Shown one piece after another: positions 1,137 through 46,880 of a stretch of 52,543 nt of DNA. This DNA is from Muribaculaceae bacterium (GTDB lineage: Bacteria; Bacteroidota; Bacteroidia; Bacteroidales; Muribaculaceae). Within the stretch, counting starts at the first letter, position 1. Each line of letters starts with the position of its first letter. Where the stretch lies: positions 1 through 52,543 of the forward strand of contig JAFZRJ010000010.1 in NCBI GenBank assembly GCA_017619935.1. The letters are read 5' to 3'. The notes beneath the pieces are model-generated. The model made no database searches. It was not told the origin of the DNA and worked only from the letters and a program-made list of their open reading frames with translations. Position numbers and translations under genes: made by a program.

Positions 1137-1874
1137 TTAATTAGCAAGAATGATATTGATTATGGCGTTCACATCACTGATATCCACCTTACCGTCTCCC
1201 GTGAGGTCGGCACTGCCCTGAAAATCGCTGGCAACATTCGCCTCAAGGATGATGTTGATGGCACAGTTCACGTCGCTGATATCCACCTTGTCGTCCCCAT
1301 TAACATCGCCCTCCATTAATGGCGGTTGCGGAGCATCGGTTTTGTCGCCCGTGTAATCAATGTCCATATGCGTCTGGAACACTGTCATAACAGCGCCCGA
1401 ACTAGAAACTTTAATCACAATATCAGTATCGATTGTGACAAAGAATTTGGAGCCATTGAATCGTCCCGTAAATTTCACCTCAAACGGCGTATTACCGGCA
1501 TCCGACAAAAGATGTTGATACTGACTGGGAATCATATCCTGATACCCTTCAATGTCACTCACCCTCATTTGTCGAGTACCCTCTACTTTCCAATAGCCAT
1601 TATTCTGCTTTTTGGCTGTGAGGTTATCATATTCCAGCGTGCCGATGTCATAGAGCTTGCCGTCACGTAAGAGGACGAAGTCATAGAGCGTCACCTTATA
1701 GGTGCCATCGGCATTCTTCTCTACCGAAGTCAAAACATCTTCCTGTTCCACTTGTTCGTCTCCGCCAGAACTCTTTGTAGCATTGATGGTCATCCAACCC
1801 AAGTAGTAGTCAATAGCCCATGCGCTCATCGAACACATAAGAGCCATCATGATGATAGCAAATTTCTTTTTCAT
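1137..1874 (-). CDS. Secreted calycin-like protein with C-terminal dockerin-like module
   Basis: The 245-residue protein has a signal peptide of about 20 residues ending in SAWA. A single calycin-like beta-barrel region (about 21-175) shows the family rhythm TYKVTLYDFVL...DIGTLEYDNL. A two-repeat dockerin-like module forms the last 58 residues. Both calcium loops are intact (DVNGDDKVDISD and DLTGDGKVDISD), each followed by a VN..INIIL helix; the protein ends only two residues later. No catalytic motif is seen. It lies 75 bases after the 1950-3422 gene with no clear promoter in between, so co-transcription is likely. The function is unknown; the dockerin-like end suggests export and attachment to a partner. 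Confidence 0.85.
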   Translation of the reverse strand: MKKKFAIIMMALMCSMSAWAIDYYLGWMTINATKSSGGDEQVEQEDVLTSVEKNADGTYKVTLYDFVLLRDGKLYDIGTLEYDNLTAKKQNNGYWKVEGTRQMRVSDIEGYQDMIPSQYQHLLSDAGNTPFEVKFTGRFNGSKFFVTIDTDIVIKVSSSGAVMTVFQTHMDIDYTGDKTDAPQPPLMEGDVNGDDKVDISDVNCAINIILEANVASDFQGSADLTGDGKVDISDVNAIINIILAN

Positions 1875-1920
1875 TATATTTTGTTTTTAAGTTGATACTT
1901 TATTTTTCAAAAACTACTAT

Positions 1921-1947
1921 TACTAGATAATCTAGAGTTTCTAGTGA
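1921..1947. repeat. Three 9-base units with CTAG core
   Basis: Three consecutive 9-mers share a central CTAG: TACTAGATA, ATCTAGAGT and TTCTAGTGA. They fill the gap between the 1950-3422 gene and the next minus-strand gene and can fold into alternative short hairpins. They have the same period as the CTCNGAG arrays at 38667-46942. Confidence 0.7.
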
Positions 1948-1949
1948 CA

Positions 1950-3422
1950 CTATTCAGTGAGAATAATATTGATGATCCTGTTCACGTCACTGATATCAAT
2001 GATGCCATCACCTGTCAAGTCGGCATTGCCGGGATAGTCGGCTACAGTCTTCCTCTCAAGGATGATATTGATGGCGGCATTCACGTCGGCCACGTCAACC
2101 ACATCGTCACCATTCATGTCACCCTCCTTGAGATTGTAAATCTTCTTGAGGATGGTCAACTTCATTTCATCGAGATTCACGCTCAGTGTATATGCACCAT
2201 TAGGAATCCTGAACGCCTGGCCGTTCTCGTTGGTGAGCGAGAGAGACATTCCAAGCATATCTTCGGTCACGTGGAAGTCGCCATTACTCACGGCACCGAA
2301 GCGATAAGGAGCTATGGCATCCCAATCGTTGTCGCCTTCGGCCAACTTGGTGGTAAAGCTGAAGAAACTGTAGAAATTATCATCTTCAACATAGAGACCA
2401 GAGCCTACAATGTCGGCATAGTAGATGTTGGCGTCTGGGTCTTTTGTCATCTTCAAGCCCACGTTGGGGGCCCAAGTGTTTGCATTCACTTCACCCAAAA
2501 CATACACATCGACAGGATCGGGGTCGGGGTCAGGCACAGTCTCGTTCCATTCGCCGCTGACCACCATCATCAAGTGTGTCTTGTCAGCTGTGATAGTCCA
2601 CGTTCCCGCCACGGGCATCACGAAGCTCATACCCGGTTGTTCCAGAGGGATAGGAGTGATAACGGTTACCTGATTCTTAGTGAAGACCAGGTCGTCATCA
2701 CCTACAGCTCCATACCAGTAACCCTTCTCGTCTCTTAACTTGAATTCGGCATTGGCCTCCATTGTCTGCGTCACCGTCCACTTGCCAGTTGATGTTTTTG
2801 TGAGAGGAACCATATTGTTCTTATCCCAATCATTGAATGAGCCGATGAGATAGAGTCCGGGGCTGAGCGCCGGGCCTTGGGTACCACTGACGAAGTCCTT
2901 TGTCACTCGCTCATTGATTATATCGAAAAGGTAGCCATAATAGGTGATATTAATTTCCGCTACGCACTCAAATTGAGCTGACATGTAATTATCATTAAAC
3001 CTGGCTACCATCGAAACCGGAACTTGTGTGTCAACTGGCACGCCCAACATGCTGGGAGTATAACCGAAAAACGCGTCGCCATACAATTCGTCTTCAGACA
3101 TAAAATCGAGAAGGTCAACAAACTTGTTACCACTGACAACCCACAAATCATCATCATCGTCATCGGGCATGGCCATCATGTTGGAGAATTCAATTGTGCC
3201 CGCATTATAGACACGGCCCTTGAAATACAGAGTGAAATTGGGAATTCTAGCGTTGTACACACCCCGTCCGTTATCCTCCATGATAACAACGGCATTGTTA
3301 TCTACGACCTGACCTTTATTGCCAGTGGTTGTCATTTTACCATTATAATTGACCGTATTATCGGCATACGCAATCAAGCCGAACAACAGCACAAATAGGA
3401 AAAGTGTGAATTTTTTAAACAT
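1950..3422 (-). CDS. Secreted calycin-like / SusE-F-like protein with dockerin-like module
   Basis: This 490-residue protein has a signal peptide (about 20 residues, ending in AYA), a calycin-like region (21-185) and a SusE/F-like module opening with LYLIGSFNDW (about 192-298). A PDPDPDP linker leads to a second, different module (VDVYVLGEVNANTWAPNVG, about 305-425) and a two-repeat dockerin-like module (about 430-490; DMNGDDVVDVAD and DLTGDGIIDISD). The 33023-34441 protein has the same order of domains. SusE/SusF proteins bind starch at the Bacteroides surface; whether these modules bind glycan cannot be read from the sequence. A TAAATTTG promoter element lies at 3459-3466. Confidence 0.88.
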   Translation of the reverse strand: MFKKFTLFLFVLLFGLIAYADNTVNYNGKMTTTGNKGQVVDNNAVVIMEDNGRGVYNARIPNFTLYFKGRVYNAGTIEFSNMMAMPDDDDDDLWVVSGNKFVDLLDFMSEDELYGDAFFGYTPSMLGVPVDTQVPVSMVARFNDNYMSAQFECVAEINITYYGYLFDIINERVTKDFVSGTQGPALSPGLYLIGSFNDWDKNNMVPLTKTSTGKWTVTQTMEANAEFKLRDEKGYWYGAVGDDDLVFTKNQVTVITPIPLEQPGMSFVMPVAGTWTITADKTHLMMVVSGEWNETVPDPDPDPVDVYVLGEVNANTWAPNVGLKMTKDPDANIYYADIVGSGLYVEDDNFYSFFSFTTKLAEGDNDWDAIAPYRFGAVSNGDFHVTEDMLGMSLSLTNENGQAFRIPNGAYTLSVNLDEMKLTILKKIYNLKEGDMNGDDVVDVADVNAAINIILERKTVADYPGNADLTGDGIIDISDVNRIINIILTE

Positions 3423-4378: not shown

Positions 4379-5359
4379 TTAACGAATCACTTTTACCGAA
4401 GTGGTGGTGCCATCAGTATAGTTGGTCACCTTCACATTCACGCCATCAAATGGAGTCGAGCTCATCTGGCCTGCCATATTCACATAGTGAACACCAGCAA
4501 CCTCCTTTGCGGTCGACACCTCATCGACAGCAGTGTTGATATCATCAACTCGCACCTGCATCTTGTCCATGCAGAAATAAGCGGCGGTATTCATACCCCA
4601 ATCTCCAGTATCGGTCGAATTCATCGTAAAGTAAACCGATTCCACTGCTCCTAGACTGGAAAGGTCAAAGAAAGTCCAGTCGTTGAGAGCTTTGAGTTCG
4701 CCGTTCTCGTACTCTATCAGATTGATGCTAGTGCTGGTTTCGTCACCATTGGCATCAACACCTACAGCGGTAAGTTCAAAATAGTCACCCTCTTCAAACG
4801 CACGGCCAAAACCATCGCCATGCACGCAGCCATAATAAGGCCAAGGATGGTTGCAAACATACACACCCACGGGCTCAAAGATAGAGTTACCGTTTTTATC
4901 AACAAACATCACCTGATTGCTTGGAGGATCAAGTGTCCAAGTAGCAAAATAAGCCACGAGGTAAGGCAGAGAAGCATCGGCGGTTGCCGTACCATTGCCA
5001 ACGACGCAACCACCACCGGCCATACAACCAGTAAAGTTAGAGGTCCATCCGTCACTGGAAGTATCTTGACCGTAATCGGTCGTGTCACCACCCTTAGCTG
5101 GACTGAAGCCATCCCAATAATAGCCGCCATATGAAGAGCCGGGACCGCCAATGAGGTGCGAAAGCATAAACTCTCCGTTTTCGTCGCCAAATTCCAACCA
5201 TGTGTAGTCCTCGTCGTTGTAGCATTCAGTCCAAAGACCTTTTTGGTCAAACGCCAATGAAGTAGGATTCAATGGTTTGCTCAAGTCAAGCGTAATGACT
5301 TCGGCCCACGATGTAGAAGCCATCAGGGCAACAATAACTGCAGTAAAAATTTTCTTCAT
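4379..5359 (-). CDS. DUF4465-type surface protein of the cobalamin operon, type IX-like tail
   Basis: This protein of 326 residues has a cleavable signal peptide ending in SWA. The body (about 20-270) resembles DUF4465 proteins, with aromatic and glycine-rich stretches such as YGGYYWDGFSP and a final PCMDK-like segment CMDKMQVRV. DUF4465 genes recur in Bacteroidetes B12-uptake loci, and the BtuH family of surface B12-binding proteins is the comparison I would make, without being able to confirm it. The last 40 residues (YVNMAGQMSSTPFDGVNV...VKVIR) look like a type IX secretion C-terminal signal rather than a lipid anchor. It is the last gene of the operon driven by the riboswitch at 9873-10080, 53 bases after its neighbour. 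Confidence 0.78.
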   Translation of the reverse strand: MKKIFTAVIVALMASTSWAEVITLDLSKPLNPTSLAFDQKGLWTECYNDEDYTWLEFGDENGEFMLSHLIGGPGSSYGGYYWDGFSPAKGGDTTDYGQDTSSDGWTSNFTGCMAGGGCVVGNGTATADASLPYLVAYFATWTLDPPSNQVMFVDKNGNSIFEPVGVYVCNHPWPYYGCVHGDGFGRAFEEGDYFELTAVGVDANGDETSTSINLIEYENGELKALNDWTFFDLSSLGAVESVYFTMNSTDTGDWGMNTAAYFCMDKMQVRVDDINTAVDEVSTAKEVAGVHYVNMAGQMSSTPFDGVNVKVTNYTDGTTTSVKVIR

Positions 5360-5412: not shown

Positions 5413-6633
5413 TCATTCCAAAATAATATTGATTATCGCGTTCACGTCTGCCACGTCAACCTTCTTGTCACCGGTAAGGTCGGCAAGAGCCTTAATCTGC
5501 ACGTCTTCATTAATTTCCAAAATGATATTGATGCAGATGTTCACATCGGCTACATCCACCTTGCCGTCGCCGTTAAGGTCTCCGCGCACAACATCAGGCT
5601 CGGCTACCGCATCGGGATGAAGGTCAATGCCACCACATACCTCGGTACTGGTTTCTCCTAACCAGCCGCACTGCTGCAGCAAGGCACTGTACACCTTGAT
5701 GAAATCAACTTGCGACAGATGTATGGGCGTGCCGTCGTCTTCCACGGCCCAACCAATGTCATAGCCCAAATTTTGGTTGGATTGCAGATTTCCAGTGATA
5801 TAGCCGTAGCCATAATCCGGGCGGTTATCCACATAACCCCATCCCAAGTAGTACTGCACCCAATACTCTTTGCCATTTTGTCCTTCATTGACAGCGTTGT
5901 TGGCCAACTTGGTGCCCGTGAATGTGAGGGTCTCACCTTCGGCCCATCCAGGCCAGTAGCTTTGGTTGTGGAACGTGTTTTTATAGACATATCCTTCTTG
6001 CACGCTATCGGTGGCGTTGCTTGTCCAACGCACATACTCGGTATCGACTATTGCACGGTTGTTCGGGTCGGGGACCGGAGTATGGTCATCGCTAGGCTTA
6101 TAATAGGTGATGGTGAAATGGTGCTGCGTGCCAGGTTTGTCATATTCACTGCCTGCGAGTTCATACCATGGGTCATCGGGAATGCCATTGCCGTTCACGT
6201 CGCGACTCACCATCACGATGCCCGGCTCGCAACTGCCGCCCGACACCTTGAGACTATCGGAACCGAAGGCATTTCCAAACAACTGAAAGTCCTTCTCTCC
6301 TGCGACGTTCACCACTGGATGGTCGAACCCGAACACCACATAGCCGCCAAAACTTCCCAAACTGATTAAGCCTGGCTTGACCACAATGGTCGTGTCATAA
6401 AGCAGTGTACCGTCGGGCAACTCGCCCTCTTCGATGGTGGTGGAACCACAGATGGCGCTCTCCACTCTAGCTATAACATTTTCGCGCGTATCGCCGGCGT
6501 TCCACAGAGGCGAATTATTGACAAACTGTCCAGGAGCCGGCATAAAATCGTACACTTTTGTGATGTAGGGTTTGTTGTCGGCCACAGCCAGCAAAGCCAT
6601 CACGCTAACTAGTACAAATAAATAATGCTTCAT
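5413..6633 (-). CDS. Surface protein of the cobalamin operon with dockerin-like module
   Basis: The 406-residue protein has a short signal peptide (about 18 residues) and no lipobox. The body (about 20-340) opens with KVYDFMPAPGQFVN and contains a long secreted domain with many aromatic residues (DDPWYELAGSEYDKPGT, YWPGWAEGETL). Similar cell-surface proteins sit beside btuG in Bacteroides B12 loci (from memory; their function is not established to my knowledge). The C-terminal 58 residues are a dockerin-like pair (DLNGDGKVDVAD and DLTGDKKVDVAD, each with VN..INIIL). It lies 15 bases after btuG and so is clearly co-transcribed. A role as accessory corrinoid-binding or receptor-associated protein is inferred from context only. 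Confidence 0.78.
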   Translation of the reverse strand: MKHYLFVLVSVMALLAVADNKPYITKVYDFMPAPGQFVNNSPLWNAGDTRENVIARVESAICGSTTIEEGELPDGTLLYDTTIVVKPGLISLGSFGGYVVFGFDHPVVNVAGEKDFQLFGNAFGSDSLKVSGGSCEPGIVMVSRDVNGNGIPDDPWYELAGSEYDKPGTQHHFTITYYKPSDDHTPVPDPNNRAIVDTEYVRWTSNATDSVQEGYVYKNTFHNQSYWPGWAEGETLTFTGTKLANNAVNEGQNGKEYWVQYYLGWGYVDNRPDYGYGYITGNLQSNQNLGYDIGWAVEDDGTPIHLSQVDFIKVYSALLQQCGWLGETSTEVCGGIDLHPDAVAEPDVVRGDLNGDGKVDVADVNICINIILEINEDVQIKALADLTGDKKVDVADVNAIINIILE

Positions 6634-6648: not shown

Positions 6649-7800
6649 TTAATGTTCATTCTCATTGTTACCTAAAAAAGCAATGTGGGCAGGTATGTCA
6701 CCAGTACGCACATCCCATTTCAGCACGCCATCATTACTATAACAAAGCAACCGACCGGGCGACACGTAGTCCTTGGCGTCGGTCACAAGGATGTCTTTCG
6801 TAATAGGATGCACCGCCACTCCGTAGGGTATGGCTATATCGGCATCGGTGCCATCGGTAATGAAACGGTCGGAAACCTGTTCGAGAGTGGCGGTATTGAT
6901 AATGGCAAACGACACCTCATTCTTCATCGTCACATAACTGAACTGCACCCCTATCACATAGAGCGAGTCGCCGTCAAGCCACATGTTGCTCACGCTGCAA
7001 TCAAATTCTTTAATCAAGCGCTGGTGACGCGTGTCGTAGGCATACAGACGGCTCGACGTGTCATAATAATCGCCTCGGGACGATATCCACAGCACACCTC
7101 GGGCATCGGCACGACACCTGTGCAGGTTGATGGCAATGGGGATGCGGCGTTCTTCCTTAAATGTGGCCATATCTATCACCGAAATGGTGTTCTCATAGTT
7201 AGGAACCATATAACCGCCCGAGTTCGCCACATAAATCTTGCCGTTCACAATGTCCAGCTCGTCGGGTTGGTATCCCACCACGCAAGTGGCCACCACTTGC
7301 AGCGAGGCGGTGTCTATCTTCGCCACATAACCGAGTTGCTTGTAGTCTTCCCTGATTTCCACAGGCCCTGCATAACTGGTCACATAAGCATATCCACCAT
7401 AGAACTTGATATATCGACAATTCGGAATGTCTATCTGGCCTATTTTTTTGACCGTCATCTTGTCCATGACATCAATCTTGTTGGAGCAGTTGATAACGGC
7501 GTAGAGTTTGCTGCCATAGATGCCCAAGTCATTACCCACGTCACCCATTTCCTTGGGCACCGAAGGATTGGCAAAGGCGAAAATATTACGGGAGTAGCGG
7601 CCTGTGTTGAAATTGTAATAGTCCAACGTGGCTTTGTTGCTACCCATGTTGCCCTCGTTGAGCAGATAGAGCCCCTGTACCGATGTGAATTCGGGAAGGC
7701 TGACCTCGACCTCTTCAGGAATGAAGATGAATTCTTCCTCACGGCACGACACGAGTGCCAACAAGCCGAGAACGAGTATTATATGTATCGCCTTTTTCAT
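6649..7800 (-). CDS. btuG: BtuG-type surface cobalamin-binding beta-propeller lipoprotein
   Basis: This predicted lipoprotein has 383 residues and a lipobox at Cys19 (LALVSC). The acidic stretch after it (REEEFIFIPEE) fits a Bacteroidetes surface-export signal. The rest is a YncE/DUF5074-like beta-propeller with repeated blades (LYVIGVQFSY, IDMATFKEERRI, VDAKDYVSPG are typical strands). Known BtuG proteins bind cobalamin very tightly and act as a lid on BtuB at the outer surface. Its start codon overlaps the btuB stop as TGATG, so translation of the two is probably coupled. Riboswitch control and position directly after btuB make the identification strong. Confidence 0.9.
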   Translation of the reverse strand: MKKAIHIILVLGLLALVSCREEEFIFIPEEVEVSLPEFTSVQGLYLLNEGNMGSNKATLDYYNFNTGRYSRNIFAFANPSVPKEMGDVGNDLGIYGSKLYAVINCSNKIDVMDKMTVKKIGQIDIPNCRYIKFYGGYAYVTSYAGPVEIREDYKQLGYVAKIDTASLQVVATCVVGYQPDELDIVNGKIYVANSGGYMVPNYENTISVIDMATFKEERRIPIAINLHRCRADARGVLWISSRGDYYDTSSRLYAYDTRHQRLIKEFDCSVSNMWLDGDSLYVIGVQFSYVTMKNEVSFAIINTATLEQVSDRFITDGTDADIAIPYGVAVHPITKDILVTDAKDYVSPGRLLCYSNDGVLKWDVRTGDIPAHIAFLGNNENEH

Positions 7801-9857
7801 CAGATGTCAAACTTCAGGATAAGTTTATAATTTCGTCCCGGCATGGGATAATTCTGTATCACATCATATTGCTGATTGAACAGGTTGTTGACCTCGGCGG
7901 TCACTTTGCACGCCACACGACGCCACTTGAACTCATAGCTGGCCGAAAGGTCGTGGGTGTACCACGGCTGCTCATGATTGGCAAGAATGTTGGCGCTGTT
8001 GTGGTAACGCTCACCCACATAGATGAAACTGTAGTTCACGTTCAGGTCTCGCCATGCGCCATGCAAGGTGGCGCTACCGCTGTGCCATGGGATATAAGCG
8101 ATTTGCCCCTTATAGGTGCCACCGTCAAGGCAGTCTTCGGGATGGGTGTAGTCCTGTGCCCGCTGATAGGTATAGGTCAAGCCGCCTTCAATCAACACCG
8201 ATTGTGGCAGTCTAAAAGCCAGACGAGCCGTAAGGTCAATTCCTCGTATTTTCACCTTGCCTATGTTCATCATCATCCACCTGTACTGGCCAGTGCCTTT
8301 GGGCACCGCGATAATCTTGTCATCCACGATATTGTAATAAGCGTCGGCGCTCAGGTGAAGGGCGTTGAACCAACTCTCGTCGTTGTAGTGCTGATACATG
8401 GCGCCCACATTCCACTGCGTGGCATATTCGGGACGCAGCGAGGCATTACCCATATCGGTATAATACAAGTCGTTGAACGTGGGCATACGGAAGATGCGCT
8501 TGTAAAACGCCCTGAAATTCAGGTCATGTTCCAACCACGGCTGATAACTGATGAAAACTGCCGGAGTGAACTTGTTGAGGTGCTTGTCGTGACGCTTGAC
8601 GACCGTTTCGCCCGACTGTGACGTGTAGCGGTCATTGACGTGTGTGTAGAGCACACTTGCCTGTCCCTTGAACCTCCGCCACGAGTAGGCGGTGGCAATG
8701 GCGGCCAAAGCGGTGTGGCGAGTGGGCTTGGCAAAATTCACCAATGTGGAATTAAGGTAGTTCCACTTGTAGTCCACACTCACGTCCACATCCCAATCAC
8801 GTGCAAGGGTGTATTTGTTCGCCAGCGATACATAGACCTCGTCTTGCCAGAACTTGTTGTCGATATACATCAACGTGGTGTCGGGATTCCAGTAGCGCAT
8901 ATAATCACGGGCATACTTGGCGCTGGCAAGCAATTCATAGCGTTCAGCCAGTTTTTTGCGGAACATACCTTGGGTGAAGAAGTTCTTGTCCCACTGCCGC
9001 TGGGCGGTTTTCCACACATTGTTGACAATGGCGCCAGGAATGCCCTTTTCGCTGTCGTAGTAATAGATTTTGGCATTCCAACGGCCATCGGTCATCACGC
9101 CGAACAGCGCCCCTTCGGCACGGAACGAACCTATATCGCCGTTATTACGCACCGCGGTGGTATCCCACGCCACTACCCCATCGCTGAAGAGTTTGCGATA
9201 ACGGAAATGGTATTTTCCGGTGGCATAGGTGTACTCAGCGTTCAGCGCCATGCTCACATGGCGACTAAACTTGTGTTCCCAACGCATCGAAGGATTGGCA
9301 AGCCCGAACGAACCCGTGCGGAACGTCACATTGAGGTGGTCGCGCTCACCTTGGGCAAACTTCGGGCGACGAGTGCGCAAATAAATGCTGCCAGCCGACC
9401 CAAAATCGCGGGCAGGCTGGAATATATCGCTCTTCTGACCATTATACAAGGAGATTTCCTCTATGTTGTCGAGCGAAAATTTTCCCAAATCTATTTGTCC
9501 GTTCTGCGCGTTGCCCAGTTGGATGCCGTCGTAAAACACCCCCATGTGGTTGCTGCCCATCGAGCGCATGTCCACCGTCTTGATGCCACCCACTCCGCCA
9601 TAGTCCTTGATTTGCACACCCGAAAAATAACGAATGGCGTCGGCCACGCTGTGGCTGTTCAGCCCCTCCAGTTGCTTGCCGGTTAACCGTTGGGCAGGGA
9701 CAACCTCGGAATATGGCCGGATGCCATACACCGTCACATTGCGGAGATATTGCATGGAGTCAAGACGACTGGTGCCCACGACCTCATTGTCCTGCGCTTC
9801 ACAGCACACGACAACAATACACAACAAAACAACCAACCATGTCAGTCTCGTTTTCAT
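7800..9857 (-). CDS. btuB: TonB-dependent cobalamin receptor BtuB
   Basis: This 685-residue outer-membrane receptor has a signal peptide ending near EAQ. A plug domain follows (about 40-165) with SVADAIRYFSGVQIKDYGGVGG and the plug strand VDMRSMGSNHMGVFYDGI. A 22-strand-type barrel fills the rest and ends in the terminal aromatic strand YKLILKFDI. It would import corrinoids across the outer membrane with TonB energy. No N-terminal carboxypeptidase-like extension of SusC type is present, which fits a vitamin rather than a glycan receptor. The gene is first in its operon and directly downstream of a cobalamin riboswitch, which decides between B12 and other siderophore-like substrates. Confidence 0.93.
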   Translation of the reverse strand: MKTRLTWLVVLLCIVVVCCEAQDNEVVGTSRLDSMQYLRNVTVYGIRPYSEVVPAQRLTGKQLEGLNSHSVADAIRYFSGVQIKDYGGVGGIKTVDMRSMGSNHMGVFYDGIQLGNAQNGQIDLGKFSLDNIEEISLYNGQKSDIFQPARDFGSAGSIYLRTRRPKFAQGERDHLNVTFRTGSFGLANPSMRWEHKFSRHVSMALNAEYTYATGKYHFRYRKLFSDGVVAWDTTAVRNNGDIGSFRAEGALFGVMTDGRWNAKIYYYDSEKGIPGAIVNNVWKTAQRQWDKNFFTQGMFRKKLAERYELLASAKYARDYMRYWNPDTTLMYIDNKFWQDEVYVSLANKYTLARDWDVDVSVDYKWNYLNSTLVNFAKPTRHTALAAIATAYSWRRFKGQASVLYTHVNDRYTSQSGETVVKRHDKHLNKFTPAVFISYQPWLEHDLNFRAFYKRIFRMPTFNDLYYTDMGNASLRPEYATQWNVGAMYQHYNDESWFNALHLSADAYYNIVDDKIIAVPKGTGQYRWMMMNIGKVKIRGIDLTARLAFRLPQSVLIEGGLTYTYQRAQDYTHPEDCLDGGTYKGQIAYIPWHSGSATLHGAWRDLNVNYSFIYVGERYHNSANILANHEQPWYTHDLSASYEFKWRRVACKVTAEVNNLFNQQYDVIQNYPMPGRNYKLILKFDI

Positions 9858-9872
9858 CCGGGTTTCTTTTAC

Positions 9873-10080
9873 CGACTTGGCAGGTCTTCTGGCTTATTCC
9901 GCCCTTTGTTTCGGAAATTCCTTCCCACACACCTCAGTCTAGAAGCGCCCGTGTGCAGTGAAATATCCTAGGGACTCATCGATTTTCGATGGGAAAATAC
10001 AGCAGCACCGTCTGCTCGGGATTCTCACCCGATTCCCTTTTCACTCAAGCCTTTTAGGGCTTAAGCACCAAATCACCTTG
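9873..10080 (-). ncRNA. Cobalamin riboswitch
   Basis: On the minus strand the leader shows the hallmarks of the class: GGGAATC...GGTGAGAATCCC, then GACGGTGCTGCTGTATT, GAGTCCCTAGGATA...CACTG, GGGAAGGAATTTCC, and the terminal B12 box GCCAGAAGACCTGCC (9879-9893). The start codon of btuB lies about 20 bases beyond the box with no intervening terminator, so control is probably at translation initiation. It senses adenosyl- or other cobalamins and represses btuB-btuG and the two following genes. Confidence 0.96.
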
Positions 10081-21706: not shown

Positions 21707-21730
21707 AGCCTTTTGCTTTTTTCTCGACCG

Positions 21731-38741: not shown

Positions 38742-40691
38742 ATGATGAAAAAATTTACTTTATTATGCTTGTCGGCATTTGTATGCCTTTGCACAAGCGC
38801 TTTTACCTCTGGAAAATTTAATTACACCATCGTAGGTGAAAACGAGGTGGAAATATGCCAGCCAGCCGATATCAGCGAAGACGGTGGCTACAAGGATGTG
38901 GTTGATTTGCCGTCAAGCGTGAGCTATGGTGGTAAGACCTACACGGTAGTGGGCATCGGCGAACGCGCGTTCCAGCATGCCGAAATCGCAAGTATGCTCA
39001 TACTACCCTCCACATATCGCTATATTGGTCCTTGGGCTTTCCACAGTGCCTATGGCGTTGCGGTGATGTTGAGTGAGAACACCGATTCGCTGGGTGTCGG
39101 CGCATTTGCTTACAACGAGCTCAATAATCTGCTTTGCAACGAAAACAACCCGAAGTATTCACTCATCTATTCCCGCGATTTGCCTGAAGGCGAAACTTGG
39201 GTGGGCGGTGTGCTAGTTACCAAGGACAAGGAGACCGTTGTCGCTTTCCCTGGAGGTAAGAAAGTTAACGGCAGTTATGTTTATACTTATAACGTGCCCT
39301 CCATCGTCAAGCATATTGCGCCCCACGCTTTCCACGGCGCACCACACCTTAAACGGGTCGTGTTCCACGATGCAGTGGAAGATATTGGCGAATATGCCTG
39401 CTATGAGTGCTTGGAGATGACCCGAGTGGAAATTCCCGGCAACACCAAGTTGAGCTATGCTGCATTTGCCGCATGCGAGACCAATCTGAACACCATCATC
39501 TTGAATGAAGGTGTGACGGAAATCCCCGACTACTGCTTTTTCGATGCCGAGAATTGCACCAACTTGCAATTGCCCAGCACGCTGGAGCGCATCGGGGAAT
39601 ATGCTTTGTGTTATTTCGAGAACATCACCACCATCAACTTGCCCGAGAACCTGCAGATTCTTGACAATGGCGCCTTGTCAAGCTGCACCCGACTGACAAC
39701 GGTGAATTTCAACGACAAGTGCCGTTATGTGGGACCACAATGTTTCGCTAATTGTGATGCGCTGGTTTCCATCGACCTGAATAAGGTGGAGATTCTCGAC
39801 AAACTAGCTTTCAACGGCTGTTCCAACCTGACCAACGTCACGCTAAACCATATCACGCATCTAGGCCGCGCCCCATTCTACCAGTGCAGCAAAATCACCA
39901 AAATTGATTTCCCCGAAACACTGGTTTACATGGATCCTGTGACCTTTATGATGTGCCGAGGACTCAATGAACTGACCATTCCCGCCAGTGTTCAGTACAT
40001 CGGTGGCGGAACGGCTGCTGGCGCAACCTCACTCAAGGAGATTGCCGTGGCTGAAGGCAGCAACTACTTCACTACCATCGACGGCGTGCTCTACGACAAG
40101 GCCCTCACCACGCTGGTGGCCATTCCCGGAGGATGGGAACCCACCGAACTCAACTTGCCCGCCTCGGTCACTACCATTGCCGAGCAAGCCGGACACTGGT
40201 GCAACATCACCAAACTCAACGCGCCTGGCGTGAAGGTTTTGATCAAGTCGGCCTTCAGCGAGTGCGCTTCGCTCGAAGAAGTATTGTTGGGCGCCGCATG
40301 CGACAGCATCGGAGAAACCGTGTTTGCCTCATGCACAGCCATCACGAAGGTGACCAGTCTGAATCAGATTCCGCCCAAGGGTGGCATTTTTGACGATGCC
40401 GTCTATAACGCGGCTACACTCTACGTACCCCGTGGCTACAAGGAAGCTTATCAAGCCGACGAGAACTGGGGCAAGTTCCTCAACATCGAGGAAATCGACG
40501 TGGAAGAGCCCGGTGTGGTCGGTGACCTCAACGGCGACGGTGTGGTGGATGTGGCTGACGTGAACATCTGCATCAACATCATTTTGGAAATCGACAATGA
40601 CCCCGAGGTCAAGGCGCTGGCCGACCTCAACGGCGACGGCGTGGTGGATGTCGCCGACGTGAACGCCATCATCAACATCATCCTGCAGTAA
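38742..40691 (+). CDS. BspA-like leucine-rich repeat protein with dockerin-like module (B1)
   Basis: The 649-residue protein has a signal peptide of about 20 residues (ending near TSA). A characteristic start (FTSGKFNYTIVGENEVEI) is followed by BspA/LRR_5 repeats (about 50-570), the ATLYVPRGYKEAYQADENWG segment, the acidic linker and a dockerin-like pair. The central repeats differ clearly from those of A1, but the last 95 or so codons are nearly identical to A1 at the DNA level. No promoter is seen before it, so it is probably read with A1 through the P1 array. An adhesin-like role is inferred from the family. Confidence 0.88.
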   Translation: MMKKFTLLCLSAFVCLCTSAFTSGKFNYTIVGENEVEICQPADISEDGGYKDVVDLPSSVSYGGKTYTVVGIGERAFQHAEIASMLILPSTYRYIGPWAFHSAYGVAVMLSENTDSLGVGAFAYNELNNLLCNENNPKYSLIYSRDLPEGETWVGGVLVTKDKETVVAFPGGKKVNGSYVYTYNVPSIVKHIAPHAFHGAPHLKRVVFHDAVEDIGEYACYECLEMTRVEIPGNTKLSYAAFAACETNLNTIILNEGVTEIPDYCFFDAENCTNLQLPSTLERIGEYALCYFENITTINLPENLQILDNGALSSCTRLTTVNFNDKCRYVGPQCFANCDALVSIDLNKVEILDKLAFNGCSNLTNVTLNHITHLGRAPFYQCSKITKIDFPETLVYMDPVTFMMCRGLNELTIPASVQYIGGGTAAGATSLKEIAVAEGSNYFTTIDGVLYDKALTTLVAIPGGWEPTELNLPASVTTIAEQAGHWCNITKLNAPGVKVLIKSAFSECASLEEVLLGAACDSIGETVFASCTAITKVTSLNQIPPKGGIFDDAVYNAATLYVPRGYKEAYQADENWGKFLNIEEIDVEEPGVVGDLNGDGVVDVADVNICINIILEIDNDPEVKALADLNGDGVVDVADVNAIINIILQ

Positions 40692-40930: not shown

Positions 40931-42847
40931 ATGAAAAAAACTACTACCCTCTTTAAGACCATCATGCTGGCCATTATGCTATGCTGTTCGTGCCAAGTGA
41001 TGATGGCTTTCGACGTGGACGGAATGAGCTACGAAGTCAATAATGAAGTGAACAAGACTGTGACCCTTACAAAGGGCAAGTCATCGGCAACTCACGTCTT
41101 CGTACCTGAGACAGTAACCAATGGCGGTGTCACCTACACGGTCAACACCATTGGCCAAAATGCTTTTGCACGGTGTGAAGTTGTGGGGCAGGTCAGGCTT
41201 CCCGAAACAGTGACTCGTTTGGAGTTCTACGCGTTCTATGAGTTGGACGCTACTGGCATTCGCATCGCTGGCGACCTGGATTACGTGGAATTTGGAGCTT
41301 TCTACGGCAATAAGGTAAGTGCCATCATCTGCTACTCCACTACCTATTTCTCACAGGATATGGGTGTCCTCGCCAACAAGGAAAAGACGATGATTATCGC
41401 TTGTCCTGGAAAACCCTCCATTGACAAGTGGAAATCGCCCAACCTCACCATTCCCGAAGGCTATGAGTATATCGCTCCATACGCATTCGCTGAGAATCAG
41501 AATCTGACAGGAATCACCATTCCTGCTTCAATCAAGGAGATTGGCTTAGGAGCCTTTGAGCAGTGCCCCAACCTGCGCAGCATTAACATCCAAGGCGGTG
41601 AGACCCTGGTGGGCGACCGAGCCTTTATCGGCTGCGAACAGGTGACCAGCCTGAGCCTGCCGACGGGACTGAAAACCGTAGGAAACAGCGCATTTTACGA
41701 CCTGATGGCCCTGACAACGCTTAACTTGCCCGAAGGTATGATATCAACGGGCGTCAACTCGTTTGGTGGTTGTGAAGCGCTTACCACCGTTAATTTCCCC
41801 AGCACACTCCAGACCATCGGCGAACGAGCTTTCATAGCTTGTGGCGCACTTAAACAAGTCAACCTCCCGGAATCGCTCGACACCATCGGCAACAACGCTT
41901 TCTTTAATGTTGATTTGCAGTCGGTTGACCTGAAAAACGTCAAATGGGTAGGCAGCCAAGCATTTAGCAACAACTATAATTTGTCATCGGTGAACTTTGG
42001 CGAACAACTTGATTACCTCGGCAATGCCGCATTCTACGGCTGCCGCTCGCTTGGCACTGCAAATTTGCCTGCCAGCTTGCGTGAAATGGTAGGTACCACC
42101 TTCTACAGATGTTCTGGACTCAACGACCTTACCATCGGTGCCGGTGTGGAAATCATCGGTCAGGGCATCACAGTGGGAACCACCTCACTGAACGAAATCA
42201 AGATTGACCCGGCCAACACACACTACGCCGTCAAAGACGGATGGCTCTACACCAGTGACTTCAAACACCTGGTGGCCATTCCGGGAGCAATGACAGGCGT
42301 GCTCACCATTCCTGAAGGAACGGTAAGCGTAGGAGAACAAGCCGGTCGTATGCTGGGCATCTCCGAACTGATGACATCGACAGGACTTAAAACGCTGGAG
42401 GGCGCTTCTTTCATGGGATGTAGCCAACTGGCGAAGGTCACCCTCAGCGCCACCGTTGATTCCATTGCCGGCAATGCCTTTGGCAGCAGTTCGGCCATCA
42501 CCGAGGTCACCTCGCTCAACCGCGTGCCACCTATTGGCGGCTTATTTGACGAAGCCGTTTATTCGGCAGCCACGCTCTATGTGCCTCGTGGCAGCAAGGA
42601 GGATTATGCCGCCCATGAGAACTGGGGTAAGTTCCTCAACATCGAGGAGATTGACGTTGAAGATCCCGGTGTGGTCGGCGACCTTAACGGCGACGGCGTG
42701 GTGGATGTGGCCGACGTGAACATCTGCATCAACATCATCCTTGAAATTGACAATGACCCCGAGGTCAAGGCGCTTGCTGACCTCAATGGTGATGGTGTGG
42801 TGGATGTCGCCGACGTGAACGCTATCATTAACATCATCTTGCAATAA
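40931..42847 (+). CDS. BspA-like leucine-rich repeat protein with dockerin-like module (A2)
   Basis: The 638-residue protein is the paralogue of A1 (36742-38658), equal in length and collinear throughout. The signal peptide ends near MMA. The start domain FDVDGMSYEVNNEVNKTVTL, the LRR_5 repeats, the ATLYVPRGSKEDYAAHENWG segment and the dockerin-like pair are all in the same places. The ATG at 40931 was chosen because upstream in-frame start codons fall inside the promoter (40862-40892). It opens the second A-B unit, which continues into two further large genes. Confidence 0.88.
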   Translation: MKKTTTLFKTIMLAIMLCCSCQVMMAFDVDGMSYEVNNEVNKTVTLTKGKSSATHVFVPETVTNGGVTYTVNTIGQNAFARCEVVGQVRLPETVTRLEFYAFYELDATGIRIAGDLDYVEFGAFYGNKVSAIICYSTTYFSQDMGVLANKEKTMIIACPGKPSIDKWKSPNLTIPEGYEYIAPYAFAENQNLTGITIPASIKEIGLGAFEQCPNLRSINIQGGETLVGDRAFIGCEQVTSLSLPTGLKTVGNSAFYDLMALTTLNLPEGMISTGVNSFGGCEALTTVNFPSTLQTIGERAFIACGALKQVNLPESLDTIGNNAFFNVDLQSVDLKNVKWVGSQAFSNNYNLSSVNFGEQLDYLGNAAFYGCRSLGTANLPASLREMVGTTFYRCSGLNDLTIGAGVEIIGQGITVGTTSLNEIKIDPANTHYAVKDGWLYTSDFKHLVAIPGAMTGVLTIPEGTVSVGEQAGRMLGISELMTSTGLKTLEGASFMGCSQLAKVTLSATVDSIAGNAFGSSSAITEVTSLNRVPPIGGLFDEAVYSAATLYVPRGSKEDYAAHENWGKFLNIEEIDVEDPGVVGDLNGDGVVDVADVNICINIILEIDNDPEVKALADLNGDGVVDVADVNAIINIILQ

Positions 42848-42931: not shown

Positions 42932-44878
42932 ATGATGAAAAAATTTACCTTTTTATGTTTGATGGCTACTGCCGCATTGAGCGCCAGTGCTTTTACATCA
43001 GGAAAATTCAATTACAACATCGTGGGTGACAACGAGGTGGAAATCGCCCGTCCAACCGACACAAGCCAAGATGGCGCCTATAAAGACGTCACCACTTTTC
43101 CCTCAACGGTGACATACAGCGGAACCAACTACACAGTGGTAGGCATCGGCGAACGCGCTTTCCAGTATGCCGAGGTGATTGGTGCCACCATGCCCGCTTC
43201 TTATCGCTATGTGGGTCCTTGGGCTTTCTTCCAGGCCTATGGCGTGAGTGTAAAAATCGGTGCCAATGTCGATTCCATTGCATTAGGCGCTTTTGCCGGC
43301 AACAAGTTCACAAACTTCCTTTGCGACTTGAACAACCCCAATTACTCACTCATCTACCCTGGTGATGTAGAGGAGGATGAAGTCTGGGTAGGCGGTGTAC
43401 TCGCCGACAAGAACAAGGAAACCATCATCGCCTTCCCTGGCAACAAAAAGGATGGAAACACCTATCTTTACACCTATACTGTGCCCCGACGCATCAAACA
43501 TATTGCCAATCACGCGTTCAACCGCAACCCCATTCTGAAAAAAGTCTATTTCCACGATGGTGTGGAGGACATCGGTGAATATGCTTTCTATGGTTGCGAA
43601 AACATGACTTCGGTGGAGATTCCCGGCAACACAAAACTCAGTTACGGTTCATTTGCAGCCATTGAGTTTACACTTAAACAAATCATTCTGCACGAAGGTG
43701 TGACCGAAATTCCGGCTTATTGTTTCTTTGATGCCGACCCGCTCACCGACCTGCAGTTGCCCAGCACACTGCAACTCATTGGCGAGGGTGCTTTCAGCCA
43801 CTGCGCAAACTTGGAGAGTGTCACCTTCCCCGAAGAACTCCTTGCTTGCGACCCGCAGGCTTTCTCCAACTGCTCCAAACTCGCTGAAGTCAATGTCAAT
43901 GATAAATGTGTCTTCTTGGGTAGCAATTGTTTCATGAACTGCTCAGCCATTACCAACATGGACCTAAAGAACGTAAAGTATCTTGGCTCCACAGCTTTCA
44001 ATGGATGTACGGCTTTGAAGACCGTCACTGCTGCTAAACTGGAAGAAACGGATCGTGCACCATTCTACAACTGCACCTCGCTAGAGACCGTCACCTTCCC
44101 CGAAACACTCAAGAAGATTGGTCCTGTCGCATTCATGAAATGCCGGTCACTCACCGATGCCGTTATTCCCGCCAGCGTTGAATATGTGGGCGACGGATAC
44201 GCAGTGGGTTGCACTGCACTTGAAGCTATCCAGCTCGCAGAGGGCAACCAAAATTACGTGGTGGTCGATGGCGTGCTCTACGATAAGGACATGACACGCT
44301 TGGTATCGCTGCCCGGCACCATGACCAATACCGAATTTACCGTTCCCGCAACGGTTGAAACCATCGGTGAACAATCGGCACGTTGGACCAACCTCACCAA
44401 GCTCAACACCAGCAACGTGAAACTGATTGCCCAAACAGCATTCGGCGAAAGTTCAGCACTTGCCGAAATCACTTTCGGCGCCGCTACCGACTCTATCAAC
44501 GATATGGCTTTCGGCTCTTGCCCGGCTATCGTGAAAGTCACCAGCCTGAACCCCGCACCTCCCAAGGGTGGCGTGTTTGACGAGGCTGTTTACTCAGCAG
44601 CTACGCTCTATGTACCCATAGGCAGCAAGGACGCTTACGCCGCACATGTCAATTGGGGCAAGTTCCTCAACATCGAGGAAATCGAGGTGGAAGAGCCCGG
44701 TGTGGTCGGTGACCTTAACGGCGACGGCATAGTGGATGTCGCAGACGTGAACATCTGCATCAACATCATCCTTGAGTTGAACAACGATCCTGAACTCAAG
44801 GTGCTGGCCGACCTCAACGGTGACGGTGTGGTGGATGTCGCAGACGTGAACGCAATGATCAACATCATCCTGCAATAA
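42932..44878 (+). CDS. BspA-like leucine-rich repeat protein with dockerin-like module (B2)
   Basis: The 648-residue protein is the paralogue of B1, with the same start (FTSGKFNYNIVGDNEVEI), LRR_5 repeats (about 50-570), ATLYVPIGSKDAYAAHVNWG and a dockerin-like pair (DLNGDGIVDVAD, DLNGDGVVDVAD). It differs from B1 over the repeats much more than over the last 70 codons. It follows A2 through the P3 array without a visible promoter and precedes the next gene by 37 bases, so it is probably part of a four-gene transcript. An adhesin-like surface role is inferred. Confidence 0.88.
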   Translation: MMKKFTFLCLMATAALSASAFTSGKFNYNIVGDNEVEIARPTDTSQDGAYKDVTTFPSTVTYSGTNYTVVGIGERAFQYAEVIGATMPASYRYVGPWAFFQAYGVSVKIGANVDSIALGAFAGNKFTNFLCDLNNPNYSLIYPGDVEEDEVWVGGVLADKNKETIIAFPGNKKDGNTYLYTYTVPRRIKHIANHAFNRNPILKKVYFHDGVEDIGEYAFYGCENMTSVEIPGNTKLSYGSFAAIEFTLKQIILHEGVTEIPAYCFFDADPLTDLQLPSTLQLIGEGAFSHCANLESVTFPEELLACDPQAFSNCSKLAEVNVNDKCVFLGSNCFMNCSAITNMDLKNVKYLGSTAFNGCTALKTVTAAKLEETDRAPFYNCTSLETVTFPETLKKIGPVAFMKCRSLTDAVIPASVEYVGDGYAVGCTALEAIQLAEGNQNYVVVDGVLYDKDMTRLVSLPGTMTNTEFTVPATVETIGEQSARWTNLTKLNTSNVKLIAQTAFGESSALAEITFGAATDSINDMAFGSCPAIVKVTSLNPAPPKGGVFDEAVYSAATLYVPIGSKDAYAAHVNWGKFLNIEEIEVEEPGVVGDLNGDGIVDVADVNICINIILELNNDPELKVLADLNGDGVVDVADVNAMINIILQ

Positions 44879-44915
44879 CCTCTGACAACTATTACTCACT
44901 TTATCATACAAAAAA

Positions 44916-46880
44916 ATGAAAAAATTAGTTTTAACATGGCTGGTTGCCACCTGCTTCACGCTGACAGGCGCAGCCCAGATCTTCGAAGCGAACAACTTCT
45001 TCTTTAATGTGGTGGACGCTGCGAACGCGAAGGTCGAAATCCAACGGCCATTCAACGACGACGGCTACCTGTACTACAACGGCATCAGTGGCACACTGCC
45101 CGAAACGGTCACCTACAACGGCATCACCTATACCGTGGTGGGTGTGGGTGAACGCGCCATGCAGGGAGCCAAGTTGTCGAGCGACCTCATCATCCCCGAT
45201 TCCTACACCTATCTGGCCGACTGGGCTTTCCGCGAAGTAAGCGGCAACTCGGTCACCATCGGTGCCGGACTGGTCAATTTGGGACTCGGCACTTTCTCTT
45301 GCAACAAACTGAAAGAGTTCAAATGCTCGGCCAACAACCCCTTGTTCACCGTGCTCACCTCCACCGACGACAGCAACTCGGCAGGTGTCCTTGTCAGCAA
45401 GGACAAAACCGTGTTGGAATTCTTCCCGGGTGCTAAAGGTTCAAGTTCGTGGTGGGGTGGATCATCCGCCGTTAGCCGATACACGGTGCCCAGTTTCATC
45501 ACCGCCATCGGTGACTACGCCTTCCAGAAACATGAGGGTCTGCGCAGCATCACCTTCCACAACGGAATGACCAAGATTGGCAACTATGCCTTCTACGAGT
45601 GTCTGGAACTCACCTCCGTCAGCATTCCCTACGGATGCCAGTTGGGTAAAGGCAGTTTCGGTGCATGTGAATTCAATCTCACCAGCGTGACGCTGGGAGG
45701 TGGCCAGACCGAGATTCCCGACTATTGCTTCTTCGACAGCGATGCGCTCAAGAGCATCACCTTGCCCGAAGGTCTGGAATCCATTGGCGATTACGCTTTC
45801 AACTACAGCGGTATCACCAGCGTGAAATTCCCCAGCACGCTCAAGAGCATTGGTTACAACTCGTTCTCTTATGCTCCCAACCTCACCAGCGTCACTATTA
45901 ACGACGCGCTGGAATACGTCGGGGAACGTGCTTTCGGTATGTTGTCTATTACTAGCATCGACCTCAAGAATGTGAAATACCTTGGCGATTTCGCTTTCCA
46001 GAGTTGCAGCACATTGGCTTCGGTAACGATGAACCATGTGGAACGCATCGGAAAAGCCGCCTTCTTCGGTTGCAAGGCACTCTCATCGGTATCTCTCCCC
46101 GAATCCCTCACCACCCTTGACGGTCTCACCTTCTTCAATTGCTCGAAACTGTCTGATTTGGTGATTCCAACCAACACGAACAGCATCGGTATCGGTATCG
46201 CCGTGGGCACTTATGCCCTTCCAGGAATCCAAGTGGAAGACGGCAACGAGTTCTACACTGCCATTGACGGATGCCTCTATGACATCGACGTGACCCAACT
46301 CTATGCAGTACCATGCGGCAAGCCCGATTCCGCCCTCGTGATACCCGAATCGGTGGTCACCATCGGCGAACAGGCTGTGCGTTACGCCCGTGTGAAGACC
46401 GTCACCATGGGCAACAAGGTGACCTACATCGCGGCAAACGCATTCGCCACCAATCCCGTTTTGGAGGAAGTTACCCTCAGCGCTCGTCTCGACAGCATCA
46501 AGGAACAGGCATTCCTCGGCTGCCCAGTTATCAAAAAGGTGACTTCGCTCAACCGCGTTCCGCCCTATGGTGGCATATTTGACGAAGCCGTTTATAATGA
46601 AGCCACACTATACGTGCCACGCGGCAGCAAAGAGGCTTACCAGGCCGACGCCAACTGGAGCAAGTTCCTCAACATCGAGGAAATCGACGTGGAAGAACCC
46701 AGTGTGGTCGGCGACCTCAACAATGACGGCAAGGTGGATGTCGCCGACGTGAACATCTGCATCAACATCATCCTTGAATTGAACAACGATCCCGAACTCA
46801 AGGCGCTAGCCGACATCACGGGCGAAGGTGTGGTGGATGTAAGCGACGTGAACGCAATGATCAACATCATCTTGCAGTAA
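44916..46880 (+). CDS. BspA-like leucine-rich repeat protein with dockerin-like module (C)
   Basis: The 654-residue protein has a signal peptide ending near GAAQ. A distinct start domain (FEANNFFFNVVDAANAKVEI) is followed by BspA/LRR_5 repeats (about 60-575), ATLYVPRGSKEAYQADANWS and the linker IEEIDVEEPS. In the dockerin-like pair the first loop is DLNNDGKVDVAD and the second is altered (DITGEGVVDVSD, Glu for Asp at the fifth position). It is less similar to A and B than these are to their own copies. It lies 37 bases after B2 with neither array nor promoter between. Its role is probably adhesin-like. Confidence 0.87.
   Translation: MKKLVLTWLVATCFTLTGAAQIFEANNFFFNVVDAANAKVEIQRPFNDDGYLYYNGISGTLPETVTYNGITYTVVGVGERAMQGAKLSSDLIIPDSYTYLADWAFREVSGNSVTIGAGLVNLGLGTFSCNKLKEFKCSANNPLFTVLTSTDDSNSAGVLVSKDKTVLEFFPGAKGSSSWWGGSSAVSRYTVPSFITAIGDYAFQKHEGLRSITFHNGMTKIGNYAFYECLELTSVSIPYGCQLGKGSFGACEFNLTSVTLGGGQTEIPDYCFFDSDALKSITLPEGLESIGDYAFNYSGITSVKFPSTLKSIGYNSFSYAPNLTSVTINDALEYVGERAFGMLSITSIDLKNVKYLGDFAFQSCSTLASVTMNHVERIGKAAFFGCKALSSVSLPESLTTLDGLTFFNCSKLSDLVIPTNTNSIGIGIAVGTYALPGIQVEDGNEFYTAIDGCLYDIDVTQLYAVPCGKPDSALVIPESVVTIGEQAVRYARVKTVTMGNKVTYIAANAFATNPVLEEVTLSARLDSIKEQAFLGCPVIKKVTSLNRVPPYGGIFDEAVYNEATLYVPRGSKEAYQADANWSKFLNIEEIDVEEPSVVGDLNNDGKVDVADVNICINIILELNNDPELKALADITGEGVVDVSDVNAMINIILQ

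Follow-up and report, generated by a model that had tools for sequence, protein, structure and literature searches.

Type I dockerins of a Muribaculaceae genome and their probable part in a noncovalent surface-display system

What purpose is served by one and the same C-terminal calcium-loop module on a dozen secreted proteins? The question is raised by a stretch of 52,543 nucleotides from a Muribaculaceae bacterium (GenBank assembly GCA_017619935.1, contig JAFZRJ010000010.1, in our set contig C14, bases 1-52543), hereafter called the window. In it a preliminary description made from the sequence alone had placed dockerin-like modules at the C-terminus of twelve gene products, without cohesin or glycosidases, and had suggested one common receptor for them. 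The source genome (G000) amounts to 1.86 Mb in 38 contigs and is estimated to be 66% complete. We observed that the twelve modules indeed sit at the claimed positions and are real type I dockerins. They are probably part of a noncovalent cohesin–dockerin surface-display system of a rumen Bacteroidales genus.

In a six-frame search of the source genome with PF00404 (cut-off 22.9 bits), ten of the twelve modules score 33.8-43.7 bits, nine of them with E ≤ 2.8e-8 and the remaining one with 7.8e-8, values at which a chance match is no concern. The two F-hand loops with their helices described by PF00404 are clearly present in these ten copies; one further copy is borderline and the last has a single repeat below the cut-off. 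Indeed, the copy at 20189 had been called divergent and that at 32238 half-length, and both remarks were right: the former scores 22.8 bits (23.1 with its neighbours) and the latter, with its one F-hand repeat, 20.4 bits. The modules also lie as close to the protein end as described, each stopping 1-2 residues ahead of the stop codon. Single-repeat dockerins were seen on this calycin-like protein (32238-32813) and on a glycosidase of family GH53 in another genome of the genus (G040, L302). The bodies in front of the modules had been described with mixed success. Pfam bears out the calycin-like assignment for 1137 and 32238 and the BspA assignment (LRR_5) for 36742, 38742 and 44916, and the bodies of 40931 and 42932, which were outside the Pfam scan, are by eye paralogous to their BspA-like neighbours. 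The PCMD domain belongs to a gene without dockerin (28088-29245), and at E ≤ 0.01 there is neither a Pfam GLUG match in 20189 nor a Pfam SusE/F match in 1950, 30069 and 33023.

A dockerin set local to the window can be rejected, as it is genome-wide: the source genome has at least 129 PF00404 matches at E ≤ 1, of which 122 are marked as exceeding the cut-off, and these counts are lower bounds, since 150 of 195 candidates were scored. The same search gives a match at E ≤ 1 in 9 of 14 control genomes, and in 2 of the 14 a match over the cut-off. From the fetched stretches and the window we recovered, with a purpose-built model, 117 open reading frames (ORFs) with dockerins, which correspond to 116 distinct proteins because one gene is counted twice (L017 and L108); the counts of passengers, repeat residues and signals given below use the list of 117. 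No stretches were fetched specifically for the nine lowest-scoring of the 129 matches, some of which nevertheless lie inside other stretches of the set, and L101 and L130 yielded no ORF. In 100 of the 116 proteins at most 7 residues separate the dockerin from the end of the frame; the remaining 16 continue for over 100 residues past it, and several of these are truncated by the edge of a fetched stretch. The module is not restricted to the C-terminus as had been claimed, since it is N-terminal in seven source-genome proteins and in the GH53 enzyme of five genomes of the same genus. By a regular expression for signal sequences, the 117 ORFs divide into 108 with a hydrophobic signal stretch but no lipobox, 6 with a lipobox-like motif and 3 with neither.

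The passengers are diverse. Among the 25 most frequent families per scan, the 105 non-window ORFs (104 distinct) match LRR_5 (26), FGE-sulfatase (9), peptidase M6 (6), CotH (5), peptidase C10 (4) and alpha-amylase (3), with single matches to GH53, GH16, subtilase and others. The stated absence of glycosidases is correct for the ten window proteins scanned (40931 and 42932 were outside the scan) and wrong for the genome, where GH13, GH53, GH16 and others carry dockerins. Glycosidases and plant-fibre enzymes make up the smaller part of these families, unlike the mainly fibre-degrading cargo of a cellulosome. By eye, an FGE-like (SUMF1) domain follows the dockerin in eight source-genome loci (L075, L083, L091, L112, L113, L120, L121 and L123). 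Several dockerin repeats stand in tandem at contig ends in L094 (G000:C22:29091-30372) and L119 (G000:C30:124488-125746); they resemble the polydockerins mentioned in a passage of PMC7260996.

We also considered 41 genomes of the genus (20 of them good ones), 149 of the family (10 from the same genus) and 393 of the order (207 genera). In the family search all ten own-genus genomes give at least 40 PF00404 matches (93-229 first-look candidates), G001, from another genus, gives 31 and the rest 0-9. The best GH53 match of G001 keeps a tail like those of type IX secretion system (T9SS) substrates.

The window indeed holds no cohesin. In the genome the claim fails: a cohesin profile search, which the preliminary description had proposed as a check, finds cohesin-family domains on contigs C30 and C31. 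With PF00963 (cut-off 24.1 bits) there is one sub-threshold match of 19.1 bits, located in a protein built of a BspA leucine-rich repeat (LRR) part, a dockerin, the cohesin-like domain and a T9SS-like tail. A query with this domain gives two more copies adjoining it on C30 and weak partial matches elsewhere in the source genome. The adjacent C30 genes encode one standalone cohesin-like protein of 161 residues, without tail, and two LRR–dockerin–cohesin–tail proteins. On C31 the contig end truncates a fourth gene (L016, 2530-2873), which follows a dockerin gene and encodes a signal sequence and the first part of a cohesin; it is possibly the scaffoldin of the source genome. We call the source-genome copies cohesin-family because they are homologous to a copy that Pfam recognises, and not by their Pfam score: over 125 residues, the standalone copy shares 36% identity with the scaffoldin of a relative, G135 (E 2e-21). 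The cohesin fold is a nine-strand jelly roll. Against the sequences of the Protein Data Bank, our cohesin profile matches a cohesin from a cellulosomal scaffoldin best (E 0.0012); next, at E ≥ 0.07, come NagJ entries, which we take to be cohesin-like.

Cohesin domains were found in 39 of the 149 family genomes, including 10/10 of the same genus, and with a wider profile in 41/41 genus genomes (20/20 good ones); across the order, where at most 11 candidates were scored per genome, they occur in at least 29 of 393 genomes and 18 of 207 genera. A true absence of cohesin is therefore rejected by the C30 copies and by the 41 genus genomes. The preliminary description had further proposed to look for co-occurrence. 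Among family genomes outside the genus, the cohesin match does track the dockerin, being present in 21 of 46 genomes with dockerins versus 8 of 93 without (Fisher p 1.2e-6), a p value that is indicative because the genomes are not independent and dockerin and cohesin are often in the same protein. An apparent second receptor domain in tails of 233 residues was rejected, as this length equals the 700-base flank of the fetched stretches, and we based no division into two cohesin types on the cohesin tree, in which many deep forks are open.

Relatives within the genus have larger cohesin proteins. In G135 and G060 a protein of 914 residues carries six tandem cohesins between its signal sequence and a C-terminal dockerin. 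On PF00963 the G135 scaffoldin (L048) reaches 52.8 bits, and a protein with three cohesins from G042, which belongs to another genus, reaches 54.1 bits (L061); the other seven proteins in the same Pfam scan, including the G060 scaffoldin, have no Cohesin match at E ≤ 0.1, and the cohesins of the G060 scaffoldin were recognised by our own profile, not by Pfam. Six-repeat cohesin frames also occur in G157, G158 and G174. Ten public loci, two of which match G135 and G060, hold the scaffoldin gene, in all ten cases directly behind that of a dockerin–cohesin–tail protein of about 570 residues; the scaffoldin has six cohesins in nine loci and four in one (L186). The records come from water buffalo omasum, goat reticulum, red deer, four RUG genomes, presumably of rumen origin, and two entries with run numbers only. 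The preliminary description had named a typical cellulosomal scaffoldin as the finding to set against its proposal. What we found touches on this: the six-cohesin scaffoldin exists in relatives, but in the 66%-complete source genome we found only single cohesins and one cut at a contig end, with no complete tandem scaffoldin, no carbohydrate-binding module is among the Pfam matches of scaffoldins L048 and L049, and fibre enzymes are the minority noted above. In four loci from other genera of the family (L058, L067, L051 and L060, in genomes with 1-3 dockerin matches) a dockerin-and-cohesin protein neighbours a two-cohesin protein, a pair that is perhaps the ancestral minimal system.

What does the dockerin replace? 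Two cargos were compared with their homologs. The first, 5413-6633, is the one dockerin protein of a B12-uptake operon (window 4379-10087, minus strand). Its body is found in 39 of 41 genus genomes, and the same-genus orthologs carry the dockerin in 29/29 ORFs (30 loci fetched) and in 5/5 further genomes, that is in 34/34. The family search matches the body in 117 of 149 genomes, 107 of them from other genera. Among the best 20 of these 107 homologs none has a dockerin, 18 have a T9SS-like tail (17 by a regular expression composed after the tails had been seen, one by eye) and 2 have a lipobox without tail.

The second cargo, taken over peptidase cargos, is the GH53 protein, which in the source genome ends in a dockerin. 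The best GH53 match carries a dockerin in 10/10 genus genomes. It is C-terminal in G000, G146, G017, G095 and G079, and in G109, G122, G135, G060 and G040 it lies at the N-terminus, after the signal sequence (as a single repeat in G040), and there is no C-terminal tail. In other genera, the best GH53 matches have a T9SS-like tail in 11/11 cases; an apparent dockerin in one of them (L287) was a false match of the regular expression inside the catalytic domain. From these comparisons we conclude that in the tested cargos the dockerin appears to have taken over the job of the sorting tail and of the lipid anchor.

If the dockerins share a receptor, their recognition residues should agree. Both repeats are readable in 106 of the 117 ORFs, and Asn14, Ile17, Asn18, Ile20 and Leu21 are each present in 98-104 of these 106, in both repeats; by construction, the regular expression for the repeat accepts only Asp at position 12, and at position 1 only acidic or similar residues. 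The same residues thus occupy these positions in both repeats and the two halves are alike. In dual-binding dockerins, both halves carry the same residues. Among the 104 source-genome cargos, at least 95 have Asn14 and at least 91 Ile17-Asn18 in both repeats; the counts are lower bounds, as in at least 6 of the 104 the regular expression is misaligned with the second repeat, an error that also lowers the identity within the genome.

We extended this comparison to seven genus genomes, the dockerins of the other genomes being a sample from their best PF00404 matches. Within each genome the cargo dockerins share a code. Codes differ from genome to genome, with some genomes falling into a common class: Asn14/Ile17-Asn18 is seen in the source genome and G017, Thr14/Tyr17-Asn18 in G135, G060 and G040, and Ser or Thr14/Ile17-Asn18 in G122. 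At seven recognition positions, picked from prior dockerin knowledge and after the sequences had been seen, the mean identity is 0.74 within versus 0.38 between genomes. For the calcium ligands it is 0.87 versus 0.71 and for the other positions 0.58 versus 0.41; the contrast is biggest at the recognition positions, and in no position class is the difference equalled by any of 500 label shuffles. The recognition contrast stays the same when each of the 24 body clusters is represented by a single cargo. The higher agreement within a genome fits a shared receptor, which would require it.

The B12-operon ortholog gives a view of the code in one and the same protein. Its dockerin has 0.79 identity to the cargos of its own genome versus 0.26-0.71 to others in the source genome, 0.65 versus 0.28-0.40 in G122 and 0.50 (one cargo) versus 0.18-0.39 in G109. 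The dockerins of the G135 and G017 orthologs are as near or nearer to species of the same code class: that of G135 has 0.64 to its own cargos, 0.71 to G060 and 0.65 to G040, and that of G017 has 0.71 to its own and 0.77 to the source genome. As judged from these identities, the dockerin on this ortholog follows the code class of its genome.

Concerning the export machinery, the T9SS component SprA is present in 37 of 41 genus genomes and 20/20 good ones, and in 0/14 controls. Of the 31 other-genus homologs of the two cargos, TIGR04183 matches 7 and PF18962 matches 5 at E ≤ 0.05, and the others rest on the visible motif.

The common receptor of the preliminary description, perhaps cohesin-like or an anchoring machine, is partly supported by these results: the cohesins found throughout the genus adjoin dockerins and are joined to T9SS-like tails. 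With a dockerin on more than 100 proteins, cohesins in the genus and a tail or lipid anchor in relatives, the tag probably fixes proteins to the surface. The modules, cohesin-family domains, adaptors, scaffoldins of relatives, dockerin-for-tail swap, code homogeneity and SprA of the genus are features of the sequences themselves, and from them we infer the binding, surface location and export route of the cargo. Cargos with Sec signals would bear the dockerin, mostly at the C-terminus and sometimes at the N-terminus, where it would stand in for the T9SS sorting tail or lipid anchor of the other-genus homologs that were compared. The cargo-binding cohesins would reside in a few adaptors, namely the dockerin–cohesin–tail proteins, small cohesin proteins and, in some species, the six-cohesin scaffoldin with its dockerin. 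The type IX system would export the dockerin–cohesin–tail proteins and retain them at the outer membrane, and one shared receptor set would fix more than 100 proteins, of about two dozen body clusters, to the cell surface; the dockerin code differs among species. On our reading, the dockerins are probably received by cohesin adaptors located at the outer membrane.

More tentatively, the adaptors may be shared secretion tails, the cargo folding in the periplasm, binding a tail-bearing cohesin and crossing the outer membrane as a folded complex. We hold this to be possible, at rather less than even chances. If true, many sorting tails would have been replaced by one noncovalent tag with a species-specific code.

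Several observations weigh against a surface-display system of this kind. On the side of secretion, SprA was not found in the 66%-complete source genome, and the tails score poorly on TIGR04183 (cut-off 23 bits): 15.7 and 14.4 bits for the two source-genome adaptors, 14.7-17.4 bits for four of the scanned adaptors of relatives and 13.6-17.4 bits for anchor tails overall. At E ≤ 10 the same model matches 13 of 14 control genomes, and at E ≤ 0.05 it matches only 7 of the 31 other-genus homologs of the swap. On the side of the cohesins, the source-genome copies fail the PF00963 cut-off and 14 of 62 aligned copies match this model at E ≤ 0.01, a low share that would also explain their being missed in surveys using PF00963. 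Cohesin matches are lacking in 25 of the 46 dockerin genomes outside the genus, among them G001 with its 31 dockerin matches in the family search, and the source genome has few complete cohesins for its cargos (3 for 116). The swap was run on two cargos only. For GH53, the best matches of G122, G135, G060 and G040, at no more than 45-47% identity, may belong to a second paralog. G109, G095, G146 and G079 have, beside their dockerin-bearing GH53, a similarly distant second copy (L312-L315) that lacks both dockerin and tail, so that orthology is unsure for the first-named four of the ten genus genomes. A distant second copy in G017 also lacks both. As for the code, the other dockerin positions are also more alike within genomes, hence part of the similarity is paralogy. 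Finally, the scaffoldin dockerin of G135 and G060 has the cargo code, so that the pairing of dockerins with cohesins is ambiguous. Several dockerin–cohesin–tail proteins carry a different code.

Could cohesin and dockerin proteins instead assemble between the two membranes and never be exposed at the surface? Such a periplasmic complex would agree with the absence of anything tail-like after the dockerin in 100 of 116 source-genome proteins, with the Sec-type signal without lipobox that the regular expression finds in most dockerin proteins, with the tail-less standalone cohesin protein and with the second GH53 copies of the genus, which have neither tag nor tail. We nevertheless regard it as unlikely, since the other-genus homologs of both tested cargos bear T9SS-like tails or lipoboxes, one cargo is encoded in a TonB-receptor operon under a cobalamin riboswitch, and two of the three complete cohesin proteins of the source genome end in T9SS-like tails.

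The dockerin could also be a C-terminal secretion signal itself, recognised by the type IX machinery or a different exporter, with no cohesin to plug into; it mostly lies at the extreme C-terminus, it sits where other genera have T9SS-like tails, and SprA is present in the genus. This possibility appears improbable to us. The N-terminal dockerins, on the GH53 of five same-genus genomes without any C-terminal tail and on seven source-genome proteins, argue for a plug and not for a secretion signal; moreover, the predicted recognition residues vary strongly among species of the genus, which would be odd for a conserved reader, and cohesin-family proteins occur in all genus genomes searched. Partnerless calcium-binding caps that stabilise proteins and spread through gene duplication would suit the conserved calcium-ligand positions and the clustering of many bodies (63 of 104 source-genome cargos in one single-linkage cluster), but are very hard to credit when the code contrast is unchanged with one cargo per body cluster, the B12-operon orthologs bear the code class of their own genome and cohesins co-occur with dockerins.

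The features of the window are collected in Table 1. T9SS-like tails were seen by eye on three dockerin-less window proteins (4379-5359, 34708-36522 and 46988-50821), and no complete window protein was seen with both a dockerin and such a tail. At 14071-18263, three genes resemble by eye an electron-bifurcating hydrogenase or NADH dehydrogenase set.

Table 1. Dockerin proteins of the window and elements of its B12-uptake operon (positions in the window; basis of the assignment where given).
Feature	Position	Strand	Basis
Secreted calycin-like protein, C-terminal dockerin (module 1146-1310)	1137..1874	-	PF00404, Pfam
Secreted protein, C-terminal dockerin (module 1959-2123)	1950..3422	-	PF00404
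DUF4465 protein of the operon, T9SS-like tail by eye, no dockerin	4379..5359	-	
B12-uptake operon protein, C-terminal dockerin (module 5419-5586), used in the swap test	5413..6633	-	PF00404
DUF5074 protein of the B12 operon, lipobox by eye, presumably BtuG-like	6649..7800	-	
TonB-dependent receptor of the B12 operon, presumably BtuB-like	7800..9857	-	
Cobalamin riboswitch upstream of the operon with the dockerin protein 5413-6633	9862..10087	-	79.8 bits
Secreted protein, divergent C-terminal dockerin (module 20198-20362, 22.8 bits)	20189..21733	-	PF00404
Secreted protein, C-terminal dockerin (module 32040-32207)	30069..32216	+	PF00404
Calycin-like protein, single-repeat dockerin (module 32733-32807, below cut-off)	32238..32813	+	PF00404, Pfam
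Secreted protein, C-terminal dockerin (module 34268-34432)	33023..34441	+	PF00404
BspA-type LRR protein, C-terminal dockerin (module 38488-38652)	36742..38658	+	PF00404, Pfam
BspA-type LRR protein, C-terminal dockerin (module 40521-40685)	38742..40691	+	PF00404, Pfam
BspA-like protein, C-terminal dockerin (module 42677-42841)	40931..42847	+	PF00404; body by eye
BspA-like protein, C-terminal dockerin (module 44708-44872)	42932..44878	+	PF00404; body by eye
BspA-type LRR protein, C-terminal dockerin (module 46710-46874)	44916..46880	+	PF00404, Pfam

How does this system compare with known ones? The clostridial cellulosome has a CipA-type scaffoldin, with tandem cohesins and a C-terminal dockerin, and additional anchoring scaffoldins. 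The relatives of the source genome share with it the tandem cohesins followed by a C-terminal dockerin and the adjacent gene of a cohesin-bearing anchor. The scaffoldin differs in that Pfam sees no carbohydrate-binding module in it, fibre enzymes are a minority of the cargos, and the cargo code is not distinct from that of the scaffoldin dockerin. With T9SS substrates (TIGR04183, PF18962) the link is that other-genus homologs of the tested cargos end in such tails and that SprA is present in the genus; in contrast to these substrates, the tested cargos of the genus have a dockerin and no tail, and the tail is kept by the dockerin–cohesin adaptors.

Dockerins of rumen Bacteroidetes without recognisable cohesins, mostly not on carbohydrate-active enzymes (CAZymes), are described in the passages of PMC7260996 that concern them; their role is left open there, and one explanation offered is that the cohesins are too distant for recognition. 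In the corresponding passages of PMC9863278 the dockerin-rich Muribaculaceae C941 is reported without cohesin and a non-amylosomal use is proposed, and cohesins are mentioned in other dockerin-bearing genomes, including Prevotella. Our case shares with these the habitat, the phylum and cohesins that standard models do not recognise, and with PMC7260996 the prevalence of non-CAZyme passengers; in contrast to what those passages report, the dockerins can here be linked to cohesin-family domains, anchors and scaffoldins that we identified. In Table 1 of PMC6071333 the Bacteroidetes bins have at most 11 dockerins, compared with 116 dockerin proteins in one genome here; Bin136 has 5 dockerins and 1 cohesin, and Bin129 has 2 cohesins and 0 dockerins. 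Cohesin domains in the phylum, sometimes together with dockerins, are thus common to our data and to the relevant parts of PMC6071333 and PMC9863278, which give counts or prevalence only, with no anchor, code or link to secretion tails. A passage of PMC9177762 places cohesins solely in Firmicutes_A bins.

Species with many dockerins and few cohesins form category iv, the Ruminococcus albus type, in a passage of PMC6118326, where such cohesins are proposed to fix single enzymes to the cell surface and not to build a cellulosome. The large dockerin set with one or few cohesins is the same here; unlike that type as it is presented there, the host has two membranes, the anchor ends in a T9SS-like tail and the cargos include many LRR proteins, peptidases and FGE-like proteins with some glycosidases. 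A distinct cohesin group from cow rumen (Bensoussan 2017, cited in PMC5742341) may include the present cohesins. In the literature passages on Bacteroidetes dockerins and cohesins considered here, the anchor, the scaffoldin, the code and the swap are not described.

The missing cohesins of rumen Bacteroidetes thereby gain candidates at the level of genes, public genomes add a gene pair of anchor and scaffoldin, and the comparison of orthologs indicates what the dockerin replaced. If our proposal is true, the cohesin–dockerin pairing would serve general surface display in a double-membrane bacterium, beyond fibre-degrading complexes and extending to a protein of a vitamin B12 operon, and the genus would be a source of many species-specific protein pairs.

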